The position numbers were made by a program, and so were the translations under genes. Shown here piece after piece: positions 2,425 through 31,729 of a DNA stretch of 38,373 nucleotides. Location of the stretch: positions 1 to 38,373 of the IMG/VR virus record IMGVR_UViG_3300047678_000019. One strand, written 5' to 3'. The stretch comes from a virus. The notes under the pieces were generated by a model that saw nothing but the letters and a program-made list of their open reading frames with translations, was not told the origin of the DNA and did no database searches. Within the stretch, counting starts at the first letter, position 1; each line of letters opens with the position of its first letter.

Positions 2425-2708
2425 CCGCCCTCGCCCGTCGCACCGATCCGCAGAGCAGCCATGAGGCCGCACGGCAGATGACCCTGACAGGCATGGGCTT
2501 CAAGCAGCGCGAAGAAGTGCTGGATTTGGTGCGGCGCTTTCCGGGCCACACCAGCTTGGAGCTTGCCGCCCTGCCCTGCGCCACGCTCGATCGCTACCAG
2601 ATCGCACGCAGAACCGCCGAGCTTGCTAAGACCAATCAGATACGCGCCGGAGCCACGCGAACCGATTACGCAACCGGAAGGCCGAGCGTCACTTGGTATC
2701 CCATTTAA
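2421..2708 (+). CDS. Winged-helix-like phage protein
   Basis: A 95-residue protein with a pattern typical of a winged-helix domain: an HTSLELA helix, then LDRYQIARRTAELAKTNQIRAG as recognition helix and turn, and ATGRPSVTWYPI as the wing and end. Similar small proteins occur in many proteobacterial phages without a known role. The start ATG overlaps the upstream stop. Alternative starts upstream are in frame but lie inside the previous genes. It may be a regulator of early genes; this is inference from fold only. Confidence 0.6.
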   Translation: MTALARRTDPQSSHEAARQMTLTGMGFKQREEVLDLVRRFPGHTSLELAALPCATLDRYQIARRTAELAKTNQIRAGATRTDYATGRPSVTWYPI

Positions 2709-2718
2709 CGGAGGTTTT

Positions 2719-3462
2719 ATGAACGCAATTGCACAGATTCAACCCGCGACACGCGGCAACGTAGCGTCCAAGCTGGCGGCCCGCTTCGGGCTGGACGAAA
2801 ACATTTTTATGTCCACCATCAAGGCGACGGTATTCAAGAACGCCAGCGACGCGCAGATGGCTGCGCTGATGGTCGTGTCAGATCAGTACGGATTAAACCC
2901 GTTCACCAAGGAAATCTACGCATTCCCCGACAAGAACAACGGCATCGTGCCGGTGGTCGGCGTGGACGGGTGGAGTCGCATCATCAACTCGCATCCGCAG
3001 TTCGATGGCATGTCATTTGAAGAATCGAACGAGTCCTGCAAGTGCATCATTTTCCGCAAAGATCGGGCGCACCCAATCAGCGTCACCGAGTATATGGCCG
3101 AGTGCAAGCGCGAAGCTGGCCCTTGGAAGTCTCACCCGCGCCGGATGCTGCGCCACAAGGCGATGATCCAGTGCGCCCGCCTCGCCTTCGGGTTTGCGGG
3201 CATCTATGACCCTGACGAAGCCGAACGAATCATTGAGGCCACTGGCGGCGACGAACCGCGCGTCATCGCAACCGTCGAGCCGCAGACAAAACCCTTCTAT
3301 CCGCAAGACCAGTTCGATACCAACTTCCCTGCATGGGAGAAGTTAATCAAGGCCGGCAAGAAAACAGCCGACGCACTGATTGCAATGGTTGAGAGCAAAG
3401 CGCCTCTCACCGTAGACCAAAAGCAAATCATCAAGGACATCAAAGTGGAGAACGCGCAATGA
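2719..3462 (+). CDS. bet: Single-strand annealing recombinase, Bet/RecT family
   Basis: A 247-residue protein of the lambda Bet/RecT family. Family-typical blocks include QMAALMVVSDQYGLNPFTKEIYAFP near residues 53-77, a GVDGWSRIIN segment and the MLRHKAMIQCARLAFGF segment. It anneals complementary single strands made by the exonuclease encoded next. The ATG at 2719 is chosen because it has an excellent GGAGG Shine-Dalgarno and gives the normal Bet length; the open frame upstream overlaps another gene. Its stop overlaps the exonuclease start (ATGA), and SSB follows, giving a complete Red-like module. Confidence 0.93.
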   Translation: MNAIAQIQPATRGNVASKLAARFGLDENIFMSTIKATVFKNASDAQMAALMVVSDQYGLNPFTKEIYAFPDKNNGIVPVVGVDGWSRIINSHPQFDGMSFEESNESCKCIIFRKDRAHPISVTEYMAECKREAGPWKSHPRRMLRHKAMIQCARLAFGFAGIYDPDEAERIIEATGGDEPRVIATVEPQTKPFYPQDQFDTNFPAWEKLIKAGKKTADALIAMVESKAPLTVDQKQIIKDIKVENAQ

Positions 3463-5012
3463 AAACGATTGACCTAGTACAAGGCTCTGCGGAATGGCAC
3501 GCGCACCGCGCCAAGGCGCACAACGCCAGCGATGCGCCGATCATCATGGGTGTATCGCCATACGTTACACGCACGGCCCTAGTCAAACAAAAGGCTGTAG
3601 GCACAGAACGGGAGATTGATGCGGCGACTCAGAAGGTTTTTGACAAAGGCCACGAAGTCGAGCCGCTGCTGCGCGCAATGGCCGAGACGATCATCGGGCA
3701 AGACCTGTTTCCGATTGTCGGGGTGAGCGATGACGGCTTTTTCAGCGCCTCCTTCGATGGTGTGGTGATGGACGAAACCGTCATCTTTGAGGCGAAGCAA
3801 TACAACGCTGAAAAGATGGTCGAGGTTCACGAAGGCAGAATCCCGAAGGTTGATTACTGGCAGGTCGTGCATCAGTTCGCCGCCAACGAGTCGGCTGAAA
3901 AGTGTCTCTACATGGTGGGCGACGGAACGGAATCGGGTACGAATCACATCTGGATCAATCGTTCGGACATCGCCGCCGACATTCCGAAGCTGCGGGCCGC
4001 ATGGGTTCAATTCGATGCAGACGTTGCCGCCTACCAGCCGGAGGCCGCGAAGGTCGAGGCTGTTGGCCGCGCCCCTGGCGACTTGCCCGCGCTGTTCGTG
4101 CAATTGGCTGGCGGCGTACAAGCCACCAATCTGCCGGAGTTCAAGTCTGCAGCGATTGAAGTATTCCGCAGCATCAGAACCGATCTGAACACCGATGCCG
4201 ACTTTGCCGATGCTGAAAAAGCGGTTGGCTGGTGCAAGAAGGTCGAAGACAAGCTCAAGGCCGCGAAGGAAAACGCACAGGGCCAGATGGCTAGTGTGGA
4301 TGAGTTGTTCCGCGCCATTGATGAAATCAGCGCCGAGGCCCGCGCCAAGCGGCTAGAACTGGACAAGCTGGTAACGAATCGCAAAGAGGCGCTGCGCGTC
4401 GAGATCGTCAACAAGGCAAAGGCCGATGTTATCGCCCACGTAACAACACTAAACGAGTCGCTGCAAGGATTATTGTCGGCCCCTGCATCATTGGTTGGCG
4501 ATCTAACTCTCGCAATGAAGGGTAAGAAAACCCTGTCGAGCCTCAACGACGCCGCCGCGCAGGTTGTGGCAAATAACAAGATCATCGCCAGCCAGCAAGC
4601 GGAGCAGGTACGCGCCTCGCTGAAAATACTGGCCGACGCTGGACGCTCTGAATTGTTCCCTGACCGACAGACTTTAGCGTTCAAGAACGGAGACGATCTA
4701 CGCAACCTGATTGCCGCCCGCATTGCGGATGCCGATGCCAGAGAAAAGCAGCGTGCCGAAGACGCGCGCAAGGCCGATGCAGACAAGCTGGCCGCACAGA
4801 ATGCCGCGCCATTTGCACCCGCCCCGCCGCCTAGCGCCGTTGTTCAGCCGATGCCGGTCAAGGGCAAGAAGAAGCCCACGCGACCAACGGACGACGAAAT
4901 CATCGCGGCGCTTGCCCTGCACTTCCGTCAGCACGAAATGACCGTGATCGGCTGGCTGCTGGAAGTAAACCTTAACGACGCATCAACCCGCTATTCAAAG
5001 GAGTTCGCATAA
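3459..5012 (+). CDS. YqaJ/lambda-Exo-type exonuclease with long C-terminal extension
   Basis: A 517-residue protein. Residues 1-190 form a YqaJ nuclease: GSAEWHAHR near the N-terminus, FDKGHEVEP (61-69), Asp100 in SFDG, Glu111-Ala-Lys113 in FEAKQ, and the YWQVVHQ helix (133-139). These are the metal-binding and catalytic residues of the family, which degrades one strand of double-stranded DNA ends. Lambda Exo has only 226 residues. Here about 300 more follow: a helical, coiled-coil-like region (about 230-430), a proline-rich linker near 450, and a lysine-rich patch with an end domain (470-517). It overlaps bet by 4 bases and abuts SSB. Confidence 0.9.
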   Translation: MKTIDLVQGSAEWHAHRAKAHNASDAPIIMGVSPYVTRTALVKQKAVGTEREIDAATQKVFDKGHEVEPLLRAMAETIIGQDLFPIVGVSDDGFFSASFDGVVMDETVIFEAKQYNAEKMVEVHEGRIPKVDYWQVVHQFAANESAEKCLYMVGDGTESGTNHIWINRSDIAADIPKLRAAWVQFDADVAAYQPEAAKVEAVGRAPGDLPALFVQLAGGVQATNLPEFKSAAIEVFRSIRTDLNTDADFADAEKAVGWCKKVEDKLKAAKENAQGQMASVDELFRAIDEISAEARAKRLELDKLVTNRKEALRVEIVNKAKADVIAHVTTLNESLQGLLSAPASLVGDLTLAMKGKKTLSSLNDAAAQVVANNKIIASQQAEQVRASLKILADAGRSELFPDRQTLAFKNGDDLRNLIAARIADADAREKQRAEDARKADADKLAAQNAAPFAPAPPPSAVVQPMPVKGKKKPTRPTDDEIIAALALHFRQHEMTVIGWLLEVNLNDASTRYSKEFA

Positions 5013-5444
5013 ATGAAAGGCATCAACAAAGTGATTCTTGTCGGCAATGTCGGCAAAGACCCCGAAACCCGCTACCTGCCGTCAGGCGAGGCCGTCACGA
5101 ATATCAGCATAGCGACATCGGAATCGTGGACAGATAAAACCACCAACGAGAAGAAAGAAAAAACCGAATGGCACAAGGTCGTTTTCTTCAAGAAGCTGGC
5201 CGAGATTGCGGGCCAGTATCTCAAGAAGGGTTCGCAGGTCTATGTCGAAGGCGCGCTGCGTACTCGTAAGTGGGAAAAAGACGGTGTTGACCATTACTCC
5301 ACTGAGATCGTCGCCAGCGAAATGCAGATGTTGGGCGGCAAGCCCGATGGTAATTCTAGTGAGCAGCGTAGCACCCGCCCAGCGCGTCAAGCCGAGCAGA
5401 CGAGCAACGAAACCAGCTTTGAAGATGACGCGATCCCGTTCTGA
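5013..5444 (+). CDS. ssb: Single-stranded DNA-binding protein
   Basis: A 143-residue SSB with the OB-fold N-terminus ([21 protein letters not shown]), the EWHKVVFF strand, [20 protein letters not shown], and the acidic C-terminal tail ending DDAIPF that recruits replication and repair partners. Its start directly follows the exonuclease stop. It should coat single strands produced during Red-type recombination and phage replication. Confidence 0.95.
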
Positions 5445-6963: not shown

Positions 6964-6974
6964 CGGAGATGAAA

Positions 6975-7538
6975 ATGGAAGAAGAATGGGTTTCAGATTC
7001 ACGCGGTAATAAATGCAGCGTGCAGTATTTCGGTTCAAGGGAGGCCGCGCAAAAGGCGCTGGATTCGCTGGTTGATTGCGACAACTGTACCAACTGCTCG
7101 CGCTGCGCGCGCTGCGCGGACTGTTCTAGATGCTGGGTCTGCGAGAGATGCTCGCGCTGCGCGAGCTGCTCGGGCTGCTCGAATATCGCCAACCTTGACG
7201 ATAAGAAGAATCTAAAAGGCGACCCGACAAGTGAATGGACGGGCGCTCCTGCTATTCCGTTTATCGAGAACATTCACGCCAAGATTTATGAGGCTGTGTC
7301 ACAGCCTAAATCTCTCAAAATGGGCAATTGGCACACTTGCGACACAACGCACTGTCGCGCTGGTTGGGTTGTTCATCTAGCCGGTGAAGCTGGCTATGCT
7401 TTGCAGAAATTCCACAACACTCCGTTAGCCGCACAGCTTATCTACGAGGCCAGCGGCTACAAGATTAATCCGTGTCGGTTCTATGATGACAACGAAGCTG
7501 CGATGGCTGACATCAAGAAATTGGCGGGTGTCGAATGA
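6975..7538 (+). CDS. Cys-x-x ladder protein with conserved phage C-terminal domain
   Basis: A 187-residue protein of unknown function. Residues 35-68 have a cysteine at every third position, 12 in a row (C35, C38 ... C68), with Ser, Arg, Ala, Asp and Asn between. The N-terminal 34 residues include GNKCSVQYFGSREAAQKAL. The C-terminal part (about 90-187) has GNWHTCDTTHCRAGWVVHLAGEAG and a helical end, a domain I have seen alone in other proteobacterial phage proteins. I choose the ATG at 6975 because CGGAG lies 6 bases upstream; the ATG at 6969 would leave no spacing. The ladder could bind metals or stack as a repeat solenoid; neither is shown. Confidence 0.7.
   Translation: MEEEWVSDSRGNKCSVQYFGSREAAQKALDSLVDCDNCTNCSRCARCADCSRCWVCERCSRCASCSGCSNIANLDDKKNLKGDPTSEWTGAPAIPFIENIHAKIYEAVSQPKSLKMGNWHTCDTTHCRAGWVVHLAGEAGYALQKFHNTPLAAQLIYEASGYKINPCRFYDDNEAAMADIKKLAGVE
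7077..7178 (+). repeat. Tandem repeat encoding twelve Cys-x-x triplets
   Basis: This 102-base tract has TGC/TGT at every ninth base. A 15-base unit (TGCTCGCGCTGCGCG) occurs exactly at 7095-7109 and 7149-7163. Such a repeat can change length by slippage in multiples of 9 bases without breaking the frame. Confidence 0.85.
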
Positions 7539-7807
7539 ACGTAGAGAAGATAAAGGATTTCTCGCAACTGATGCTTAGCGAGTCCAAGAAAACTACTTCC
7601 TGCTATACCTGCTACACAGATTTAGCTGGCTGGGTTCACCGCACACTAGAATCAGCCATCTCCGAACCATCACCAACCACAGCACAGCCCGACAACCGCA
7701 ACGAGCTACTGCTTGAGGCTGTAGAGTTCATTGAGCGCATGGCCCCGCCTTGGTCAGTGCGAGGCAAAGAATTCGCCAAACGACTCCGCGAGGCGGTGAA
7801 GGGATGA
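7535..7807 (+). CDS. Unknown small phage protein
   Basis: A 90-residue protein without a recognised domain. A CYTCY pair of cysteines lies near residue 24, a Pro/Ser/Thr-rich linker near 45-52, and a helix FIERMAPPWSVRGKEFAKRLREAVKG at the end. It is coupled by ATGA to the Cys-ladder gene before it and to a tiny ORF after it. The function is unknown. Confidence 0.55.
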   Translation: MNVEKIKDFSQLMLSESKKTTSCYTCYTDLAGWVHRTLESAISEPSPTTAQPDNRNELLLEAVEFIERMAPPWSVRGKEFAKRLREAVKG

Positions 7808-7872
7808 GCCGCAAGTCCACACAACGCCGTCAGGCTCGGAAACTCAAGGATCGGATGCGGGGCAAAGCCTAA
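7804..7872 (+). CDS. Possible 22-residue basic peptide
   Basis: The ORF MSRKSTQRRQARKLKDRMRG plus two residues fills the gap between two overlapping neighbours: its ATG overlaps the previous stop (ATGA) and its TAA overlaps the next ATG (TAATG). Ten of its 22 residues are Lys or Arg. The tight coupling suggests translation; the composition could also simply reflect a spacer. The function is unknown. Confidence 0.4.
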   Translation: MSRKSTQRRQARKLKDRMRGKA

Positions 7873-8084
7873 TGTTCCTCACCATCGAAGAACTGGCCGA
7901 GCTTACTGGATGCAAGCGGGCGCAGAATCAGATCCGCTGGCTAGTCCAGAACGGGTACAAGTTCGAGCGCAATGTCTGCGGCAAGCCAAAGGTATTACGG
8001 GCGGCTGTCGAGAAACGCCTAGGCGCAATGGCCGCCAAGCCTGCCCGTCAGCCCTGCTTTGAGCCTGTCCTAAAGGTGGGCTAG
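7872..8084 (+). CDS. DUF4224 protein, possible excisionase
   Basis: A 70-residue protein matching the DUF4224 pattern: MFLTIEELAELTGCKRAQNQIRWLVQNGYKF, then a beta wing and VLRAAVEKRLG. These small HTH-like proteins are commonly found directly before tyrosine integrase genes, as here (3 bases before). The location and MerR/Xis-like HTH suggest recombination directionality control, but that has not been shown for the family to my knowledge. Confidence 0.7.
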   Translation: MFLTIEELAELTGCKRAQNQIRWLVQNGYKFERNVCGKPKVLRAAVEKRLGAMAAKPARQPCFEPVLKVG

Positions 8085-8087
8085 TCT

Positions 8088-9098
8088 ATGGACATGGGCC
8101 GAACCCGCACGAATAGCCGCCTGCCGCCGCGTATGCACTTGAAGGCGGGCCGTTACTACCATGTGACCTATGTGGGCGGGAAGCGCGTCTGGACGAAGCT
8201 GGGCGCGGATTACGGGGCCGCATTGGGGCTTTGGGCGAATCGGGAAAAGGAATCGCTGACGAAGGGCGAAACCTTCGACGATCTGGCGCGGGAGTTCACC
8301 GCCAGGGCAATGCCGAAGTTCCGCAAGAACACGCAGGAATCCTTCACAATCTGGCTCGGCCATCTGATGCGGACATTCGCAGGCGTGAAATTGGCCGAGA
8401 TCAAGCCAGCCCACGTTTACGCGCACATCGAGAAACGAGAAAAGGAAGGCGCGAAGGTATCGGGGAAGCGTGAAAAGACCCTGCTTTCGATCATGTTCAG
8501 CCGCGCAGTCGAGTGGGATTGGGTAACGGCGAACCCCGTAAAACAAGTCAGGGTTGCGAGAGAGAAACCGCGCACAAGGTATGTGACGGACGCCGAGTTT
8601 GCGGCGGTTTACGGGGCATCAAGACCCATCATTCAACTGATTATGGAGGTCGGCTACATCACCGGCCTGCGGATCGGTGACATCCTCGCGCTCAAGCTGT
8701 CGAATCTGAGCGACGACGGCATCCGGCTTTATCAGGAAAAGAACGAGGTGAAGGCCCATTACAAGATGACGCCAGCACTCCGGTCAGTGATTGACCGCGC
8801 CAAGGCCATCAGGAGGCGGCGTGGCACGTTCTACCTATTCCCCAACCGCGAGGGCCATGCCTACACCTACAGCGGTTTCAGGGCCGTTTTCCGGCGCACC
8901 GTGATTGAATCTGGCGTCGCTGATTTCCACTTCCACGACATCAGGGCCAAGGCGACGACGGACGCTCACAACCTAGGCCGTGACGCGCAGTCGTTCTCGC
9001 TGCACAAGACGCGGGAGCAGGCCGAAGCCTACGTCAAAGCGCGCAACTTCCAGAGCGTTGAACCGCTTGAATTCTTATCTACAATGGCTCGTAAGTAA
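8088..9098 (+). CDS. int: Tyrosine-recombinase integrase
   Basis: A 336-residue lambda-type integrase. The N-terminal arm-binding region is about 1-60, the SAM-like core-binding domain about 62-150, and the catalytic domain about 160-325. Catalytic residues are Arg195 (TGLRIGD), a Lys in the beta hairpin near 218-226, His283 and Arg286 (HDIR), His306 (LHK) and the nucleophile Tyr315 (AEAY). It should recombine attP (9203-9248) with a host tRNA-Pro gene. It ends the left operon, 100 bases before attP. A second ATG lies at codon 3. The 3' end itself contains one arm-like repeat (9076-9085). Confidence 0.95.
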   Translation: MDMGRTRTNSRLPPRMHLKAGRYYHVTYVGGKRVWTKLGADYGAALGLWANREKESLTKGETFDDLAREFTARAMPKFRKNTQESFTIWLGHLMRTFAGVKLAEIKPAHVYAHIEKREKEGAKVSGKREKTLLSIMFSRAVEWDWVTANPVKQVRVAREKPRTRYVTDAEFAAVYGASRPIIQLIMEVGYITGLRIGDILALKLSNLSDDGIRLYQEKNEVKAHYKMTPALRSVIDRAKAIRRRRGTFYLFPNREGHAYTYSGFRAVFRRTVIESGVADFHFHDIRAKATTDAHNLGRDAQSFSLHKTREQAEAYVKARNFQSVEPLEFLSTMARK

Positions 9099-30911: not shown

Positions 30912-31115
30912 TCAGCTAGTCCGGCGCTTGGCCGGGGAGGTGGCTACTCGCTTATGTGACTGACGAGGTTTGCCGACCTTCGCCTGCGGTTGTGCCTTTG
31001 GCGGCACGGTTGGTTCTTTCAGGTGCTTGAGGCTGGTTTTGTATGCGTCGTCTTTGCCGCCGTGGAGAATCCAGATGAGCAGGATTGCGGCAGCGAAAAT
31101 TAGGGTTCCGATCAT
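30912..31115 (-). CDS. Small membrane-anchored basic protein
   Basis: A 67-residue protein: an N-terminal membrane helix (MIGTLIFAAAILLIWILHGG) and a long Lys/Arg/Pro-rich cytoplasmic tail (KAQPQAKVGKPRQSHKRVATSPAKRR). The ATG overlaps the HNH gene stop (ATGA). The basic tail could touch nucleic acid or the membrane surface; the function is unknown. Confidence 0.55.
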   Translation of the reverse strand: MIGTLIFAAAILLIWILHGGKDDAYKTSLKHLKEPTVPPKAQPQAKVGKPRQSHKRVATSPAKRRTS

Positions 31116-31729
31116 GGCGTGCCTCCAAGCATTTCAGGGCAGACCCTGAGATTTTTTTCGATCCATTTATCCGGCAGTGTTTGGCTCTTGTGCAGATTGC
31201 AGGCCGCGCATGCGATTCTTAAATTTGTGAGAACGTGCGCGCCGCCTTTTGATAGCGGGAAGAAATGATCCACATGATATTTTTTGGCGCAGTCATCGCC
31301 GCAATAAAAACAAACTTTCGGCTGCATAGAAGCCCAAGCCAACAGCATGCTGCCGCTTATGCCGTTATCCTCTATCGCGCGCCGCCTCGATTTATAAGAA
31401 TTGCTAATAGCCGTGCGTTTTTCAGGATTTAACTTCGACCATTTCGCGGCCCGTTCACTAATCAGCGCCAGCCTTGGTTTTGCATATTCAGATTGCTTCG
31501 CCAGTATGCGTTCGGAGTTATTTTGGTAATGAGATTTGAAATAACCGGATGCAACTTTTGCTGTTGTTTTCGCTTTGGCACAGATAACGCACGCACCCGA
31601 TCGGGTGTATCGCTCGCCCACATGCCCGTTTGGACAATGCGAAAGGCTAAAATATTTATTTAAACCTAACCCGATCGCTTCTTTACGCGCTATGCCAGCC
31701 GCTTTGAGTTTTAGCGTTCTTTCTTTCAA
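31112..31729 (-). CDS. HNH endonuclease
   Basis: A 205-residue nuclease. The N-terminal zinc finger has HCPNGHVGERYTRSGACVICAKAK. The C-terminal HNH domain reads CFYCGDD, then YHVDHFFPLSKGGAHVLTNLRIACAACNLHKSQTLP, with the HNH His pair, the Asn and two CxxC knuckles for structural zinc. The middle is Lys/Arg/Ser-rich. The DNA looks more AT-rich than its neighbours. It is set between the metallophosphoesterase and lysis genes with ATGA overlaps. It could be a free-standing homing-type endonuclease or take part in DNA packaging; the latter is less likely as it is far from the terminase. Confidence 0.88.
   Translation of the reverse strand: MKERTLKLKAAGIARKEAIGLGLNKYFSLSHCPNGHVGERYTRSGACVICAKAKTTAKVASGYFKSHYQNNSERILAKQSEYAKPRLALISERAAKWSKLNPEKRTAISNSYKSRRRAIEDNGISGSMLLAWASMQPKVCFYCGDDCAKKYHVDHFFPLSKGGAHVLTNLRIACAACNLHKSQTLPDKWIEKNLRVCPEMLGGTP

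Follow-up and report, generated by a model that had tools for sequence, protein, structure and literature searches.

A cysteine ladder exchanged with pentapeptide repeats in a phage protein, a candidate tripeptide-repeat solenoid

Pentapeptide repeats, with five residues per face, are well studied, and leucine-rich-repeat (LRR) solenoids with stacked cysteines are known in which the unit is ~21 residues long and supplies one Cys per turn. In the Tenebrio antifreeze protein (TmAFP) the repeat TCTxSxNCxxAx turns C2, S5, C8 and A11, that is, each third position, inwards in a right-handed coil of 12 residues (PMC8038014), and Cys-Xaa-Xaa repeats of polymorphic length are found in heterocycloanthracin-type precursors (TIGR03601; Haft 2009; PMC2674419). 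A literature search for Cys-triplet solenoids returned only the latter bacteriocin paper and unrelated texts. Here we analyse a phage gene whose product contains twelve consecutive Cys-x-x triplets, referred to below as the ladder, together with its relatives.

The window analysed is a single IMG/VR record of 38,373 bases. The open reading frame with the ladder (6969/6975–7538, plus strand) can be read from an ATG at 6969 as well as from the one at 6975, but the latter has a good Shine-Dalgarno sequence, and hence the start at 6975 and the numbering C35–C68 are right (Table 1). The first-pass annotation had described, from this same start, twelve Cys at an exact spacing of three residues, which we find in the sequence from position 7077; it had also quoted the sequence of the C-terminal domain as we read it, and had known of no function for the protein, in which we agree. 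In order, the triplets are CDN, CTN, CSR, CAR, CAD, CSR, CWV, CER, CSR, CAS, CSG and CSN. The longest C-x-x run in any of the six frames was 2–5 steps, never 12, in 200 first-order Markov simulations with the composition of the window, so that the ladder is not a product of chance; in the window itself it is the sole C-x-x run of six or more steps. It is internal, lying between an N-terminal cap (N-cap type A, consensus E-W-V-x-D-x-R-G-N-x-x-S-x-x-Y-F-G-S-x-E-A-A-x-x-A-L-x-S-L) and a conserved C-terminal domain of ~95 residues, which we call THC from the motif WHTCxTTHCRAGW (consensus W-H-T-C-x-T-T-H-C-R-A-G-W ... IY.AS...RFY..NE.A.AD). The window protein has no match in Pfam or NCBIfam, and PADLOC returned none.

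Table 1. Coordinates of the ladder gene, its parts and its neighbours in the window.
Feature	Position	Strand	Basis or remark
RecT (PF03837), YqaJ exonuclease (PF09588), single-strand-binding-like protein	2563..5444	+	SSB by sequence only
Shine-Dalgarno GGAG	6965..6968	+	6 nt ahead of ATG 6975; read in sequence
Gene, 187-aa protein	6975..7538	+	ATG 6975 start
N-cap type A, residues 1–34	6975..7076	+	AF2, profile search, phrog_15341 match
12-step Cys-x-x ladder, C35–C68	7077..7184	+	register conserved in relatives
Linker, ladder to C-terminal domain	7185..7253	+	alignments
C-terminal THC domain, mostly helical	7254..7535	+	matches phrog_31265
Next gene, start overlaps stop codon (ATGA)	7535..7807	+	probably translationally coupled
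Excisionase-like (DUF4224) and tyrosine integrase	7872..9098	+	downstream

Scans with the C-terminal domain yielded 179 relatives in viral contigs, of which 80 were kept, and 35 in GTDB genomes (Alphaproteobacteria, Bacteroidota, Gammaproteobacteria, Patescibacteria and others), most of the relatives being on metagenomic contigs. In nearly all those with intact upstream sequence a repeat module precedes the THC domain, usually a Cys ladder of 4–53 steps, otherwise pentapeptide repeats and once an LRR-like repeat (L230), some of these class labels having been set by regular expressions. The exceptions are fragments at contig edges and two distant members (L240 and the third copy in L144). The joining of the ladder to a conserved phage domain is borne out by the relatives; that domain, which had been described as a stand-alone phage protein, is not usually one. 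Profiles divide the window protein in the same way: phrog_31265 matches over the C-terminal domain (E 1e-24, model positions 148–245) and phrog_15341 over the N-cap and ladder (E 7e-9, and E 2.6e-27 for the long-ladder relative L140, both scores being partly due to composition). Since phrog_31265 itself consists of pentapeptide repeats and THC, the window protein is, by PHROG profile, the front of phrog_15341 fused to the end of phrog_31265. No ladder protein, the window protein included, matches the pentapeptide model PF00805, while L199, a sibling with the same C-terminal domain, does. The core Leu of the sibling pentapeptide proteins is as invariant (322/325) as the ladder Cys. A tree of 89 C-terminal domains places the pentapeptide proteins in one deep group and in another that sits within the ladder proteins, and on its well supported branches no fewer than two changes between pentapeptide repeats and ladder are needed, many other forks of this short-domain tree being unresolved. 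Cys ladders and pentapeptide repeats are thus swapped before the same C-terminal domain.

Other arrangements accompany these proteins. In L144 a distant THC domain (7829, plus strand) stands behind a repeat of the GYTxxDLRxAGY type, possibly a further kind of repeat in the same slot. Tandem paralogous ladder or pentapeptide genes occur within one phage in L195 (three copies) and L144 (two and the distant third), with further tandem paralogues in L017, L045, L082 and L094; repeat lengths differ between copies, which suggests diversification by duplication. A pattern scan of viral contigs for 12-step ladders, from whose listed matches many antisense or simple-repeat translations were discarded by eye, contained among the matches listed N-cap and ladder units like that of the window but ending in other domains, sometimes as tandem paralogues. 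A second C-terminal domain, 'GSRN...VxCGCF' (VxCGCFxG), follows Cys ladders in at least L048, L067, L078 and L114, and an 'RLExxL' tail does so in at least L017, L082, L094, L107 and L111; the L114 protein has no Pfam match, and its GSRN domain gave no match in tblastn against phage records. Several contigs end inside a ladder (L004, L005, L027, L047, L053, L112, L127 and others); the repeat seems to break assemblies, and ladder genes are probably under-counted. Among annotated phage records, only that of Flavobacterium phage FL-1 (L002, KY421186.2; 3482–4313) has a clear relative; in it the 36-step ladder is annotated in the wrong frame (CDS 3609–3953 reads APVAPIAPVAP...) and the C-terminal domain is a separate CDS in a different frame; this locus combines an annotation error with a frameshift or sequencing error.

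Triplets were counted in 70 non-duplicate ladder-THC proteins, in which 1951 of 1954 begin with Cys (the other three begin with A, A and S) and the register never shifts. Ladder length, a comparison that the first-pass annotation had proposed, spans 4–53 steps among these 70 and is not quantised modulo 3 or 4. In a wider set of 43 other ladder proteins, the Cys–Cys spacing is 3 in 1063 cases, 6 in 18 and 9 in one; true register breaks are few, and the in-register substitutes for Cys are S (10), L (4), A (2) and F, N, R and G (one each). The first x is mostly Ser and the second mostly D, G, R, Y or N. Loss of the ladder, or its survival only as variable low-complexity sequence, had been named beforehand as the sign of a ladder probably without function; what the relatives have is a free length with a nearly absolute Cys register, and another solenoid repeat in the slot where the Cys ladder is missing. 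At the DNA level, third codon positions are homogeneous inside a ladder and different between ladders, with TGC or TGT for Cys and TCG, TCA, TCT, TCC or AGY for Ser. The homogenised synonymous positions point to active slippage or conversion and, with the labile length, would suit a microsatellite with a 9-bp unit that is tolerated in frame without function, selection acting on the end domains only. We consider this very improbable, since the same C-S-x pattern is encoded in different ladders by codons that are not readily interconvertible, non-Cys or shifted steps are almost absent, and nearly every relative whose upstream sequence is intact has a ladder or other solenoid. The use of TCN Ser codons in some ladders and AGY in others argues that the protein pattern was reached independently, selected and re-expanded. 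The codons thus point to two forces, 9-bp expansion or conversion within ladders and protein-level selection across them. The Cys register is under selection, and the ladder is a real protein module, not junk sequence.

In the THC relatives the second-x codon, positions 7–9 of the 9-bp unit, is nearly confined to NRY (D, G, R, Y, N, S, H), and the synonymous GGA/GGG and CGA/CGG are absent from it. Homogenisation and avoidance of TAR stops may lie behind this bias, yet not fully.

Structure prediction, likewise proposed beforehand, succeeded for the end domains but not for the ladder. AF2 models the N-cap (pLDDT ~86–93 in the window protein) and the C-terminal domain confidently in both the window protein and a relative with 43 steps, but gives the ladder a pLDDT of only ~30–50 (~38–40 in the last steps of the window protein, ~30–40 in the 43-step relative); this program is known to predict beta-solenoids too readily when repeats are perfect (PMC11795689). 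Foldseek found nothing significant in the PDB; its only match in BFVD was the FL-1 fragment of this C-terminal domain. The low confidence over the ladder, its free length variation and its polar x residues are all compatible with a flexible or polyproline-like chain whose dense thiols take up oxidants or electrophiles or form cross-linking disulfides, the C-terminal domain being the real effector. We regard this as improbable, because an unstructured chain needs neither an exact three-residue register nor avoidance of shifts by one or two residues, the dedicated type A N-cap runs directly into the ladder wherever its gene is intact, and the ladder is exchanged with a folded solenoid.

In profile and single-sequence searches the sole convincing solved match was TmAFP (1EZG), with E 3e-4 for the profile and 3e-5 and 6.5e-4 for single ladders. 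Shuffled ladders matched nothing and lost 1EZG, and a period-4 control missed it and gave E 0.002–0.03 to unrelated proteins. Since the match is composition-biased (bias ~40 bits), with E-values that are rough on such sequence, we take from it a likeness in geometry and not in descent. The ladder has, as TmAFP does, a small residue at every third position, which would here be an inward Cys; a four-triplet (12-residue) super-period was not seen in diverse ladders. The module exchange with pentapeptide beta-helices is a stronger argument for a coil than the 1EZG match. In-register substitutes are mostly small or apolar, which fits a core position. Their being mainly S, L and A, together with the beta-helical fold of the nearest solved match, makes it likelier that the thiols lie inside a coil than that they line one face of an extended helix, as had been proposed earlier. 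Against a rod, ladders of 4–6 steps exist (L172, L218), which are too short to form one. We reject ice binding given the phage setting and the lack of a TxT face, the x residues being those listed above.

The near-exclusive use of Cys goes well beyond what a generic small core residue would require and is a hint of additional thiol chemistry. The first-pass annotation had, as its other option, a multinuclear metal site, which the ladder may form. C-x-x-C is a classic metal-binding spacing, and steps of this kind could be ligands along the chain for Zn(II), Cu(I) or Fe-S clusters, making the ladder metallothionein-like or electron-carrying and not a bare rod; this would account for a use of Cys beyond structural-core need, and a ladder without its metal might well be left unfolded by AF2. 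Such a metal-thiolate ladder is nevertheless unlikely in our judgement: the slot holds pentapeptide repeats without such ligands in siblings, the substitutes include L, A and F, length varies from 4 to 53 steps with no preferred multiple, and the best PDB match was never a metal protein.

Our preferred reading, to which we give an even chance, is that the ladder is a tripeptide-repeat Cys-core solenoid rod, swappable with pentapeptide solenoids, in an early phage accessory protein; that it is a thin rod with a Cys core is probable. Each Cys-x-x triplet would point its Cys inwards and the two x residues outwards, in a chain coiled into a thin rod with a stack of cysteines as its core and, by analogy with TmAFP, four triplets (12 residues) to the turn. 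The rod would be one exchangeable module of an accessory protein composed of N-cap, rod and C-terminal domain, and would serve as the pentapeptide beta-helix may in the siblings, by holding the end domains rigidly apart, or by presenting them and a repetitive outer surface. A bolder version, which we hold to be quite unlikely, is that this is a new solenoid class whose continuous thiol column carries, within the bacterial cytoplasm, either a chain of metal ions or a stack of disulfides, and which phages swap with pentapeptide rods in an early host-takeover protein.

The window has a lambda-like layout, with terminase, portal, capsid and tail genes (named from sequence) on the minus strand and, on the plus strand, RecT, YqaJ and SSB-like genes, a short run of unassigned genes, excisionase and integrase, which bears out the location among early genes given in the first-pass annotation. 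The gene that follows is probably translationally coupled to the ladder gene. YqaJ, RecT or ERF was present in 26 of the 50 records tested, and in 22 of these 26 the THC gene lies no more than 5 kb from one of them, nearly always on the same strand, against 6.6 expected from random placement; two further records look permuted. This proximity holds for the ladder versions and for the sole pentapeptide version among the matches (L205). When conserved neighbours were sought from the window's own genes, few were shared and the recombination genes alone recurred. The context is thus that of a recombination operon. In lambda, the equivalent neighbourhood contains gam, kil and ral, whose products target host enzymes; from the recombination-gene context and this parallel, we infer an early accessory protein that acts on host DNA handling or defence, in which a rod would provide a spacer or a repetitive binding surface. 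The protein would probably be made early, together with the recombination genes, and act in the cytoplasm of the host, where defences or DNA-handling enzymes of the host may be its targets. Elsewhere in the window, near the terminase region, positions 31112–31729 (minus strand) encode a protein that resembles HNH endonucleases and weakly matches the HNH models of PtuB and type IV restriction; it is probably a phage HNH and not a defence system.

A three-residue, Cys-only counterpart of pentapeptide repeats in the same proteins would, if true, rank with the thinnest of solenoids and establish a new class of repeat. It would offer a clean system for solenoid module swapping and for the tuning of repeat length by 9-bp expansion, and it bears on whether a cytoplasmic protein keeps dozens of core thiols reduced or metal-loaded; the link with recombination operons makes a role in phage–host conflict testable. 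The window protein lies outside all Pfam and NCBIfam models, and the FL-1 ladder is annotated out of frame.

Of the described systems, the heterocycloanthracin-type precursors have the same Cys-Xaa-Xaa repeat and the same length polymorphism (PMC2674419), as would be expected if the ladder were a substrate for cyclodehydration in a thiazole/oxazole-modified peptide, like the Bacillus bacteriocin of Haft 2009. We give this scarcely any credence: those precursors are short peptides, each a leader and a core, from genomes that encode cyclodehydratases, whereas the phage ladder lies inside its protein, ahead of a conserved folded domain, and is not a C-terminal core behind a leader; YcaO was found in none of 47 ladder-carrying phage records (phage records only, so that a host enzyme is possible); and the ladder is exchanged with pentapeptide repeats. 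Cys-stacked LRR solenoids are a precedent for a Cys stack inside a solenoid, but not for Cys at every third residue. TmAFP and the ladder are both Cys-rich tandem repeats with an inward residue, presumed for the ladder, at every third position; TmAFP, however, spaces its Cys six residues apart with S or A between them, has disulfides and a Thr ice-binding face and is secreted, in contrast to the Cys at each step, the end domains, the lack of a visible signal peptide and the presumed cytoplasmic setting of the phage ladder, and we do not claim common descent. The N-cap and ladder of phrog_15341 are common to the window protein and other ladder proteins, although some proteins matching this profile (e.g. 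L114, L017) end in other C-terminal domains. Pentapeptide repeat proteins (PF00805; Qnr/MfpA-type beta-helix) occupy the same slot before the same C-terminal domain in siblings such as phrog_31265 and share with the ladder a face repeat with an invariant core residue and a variable length, but are built on A-(D/N)-L-x-x instead of a three-residue Cys triplet and carry different N-caps.
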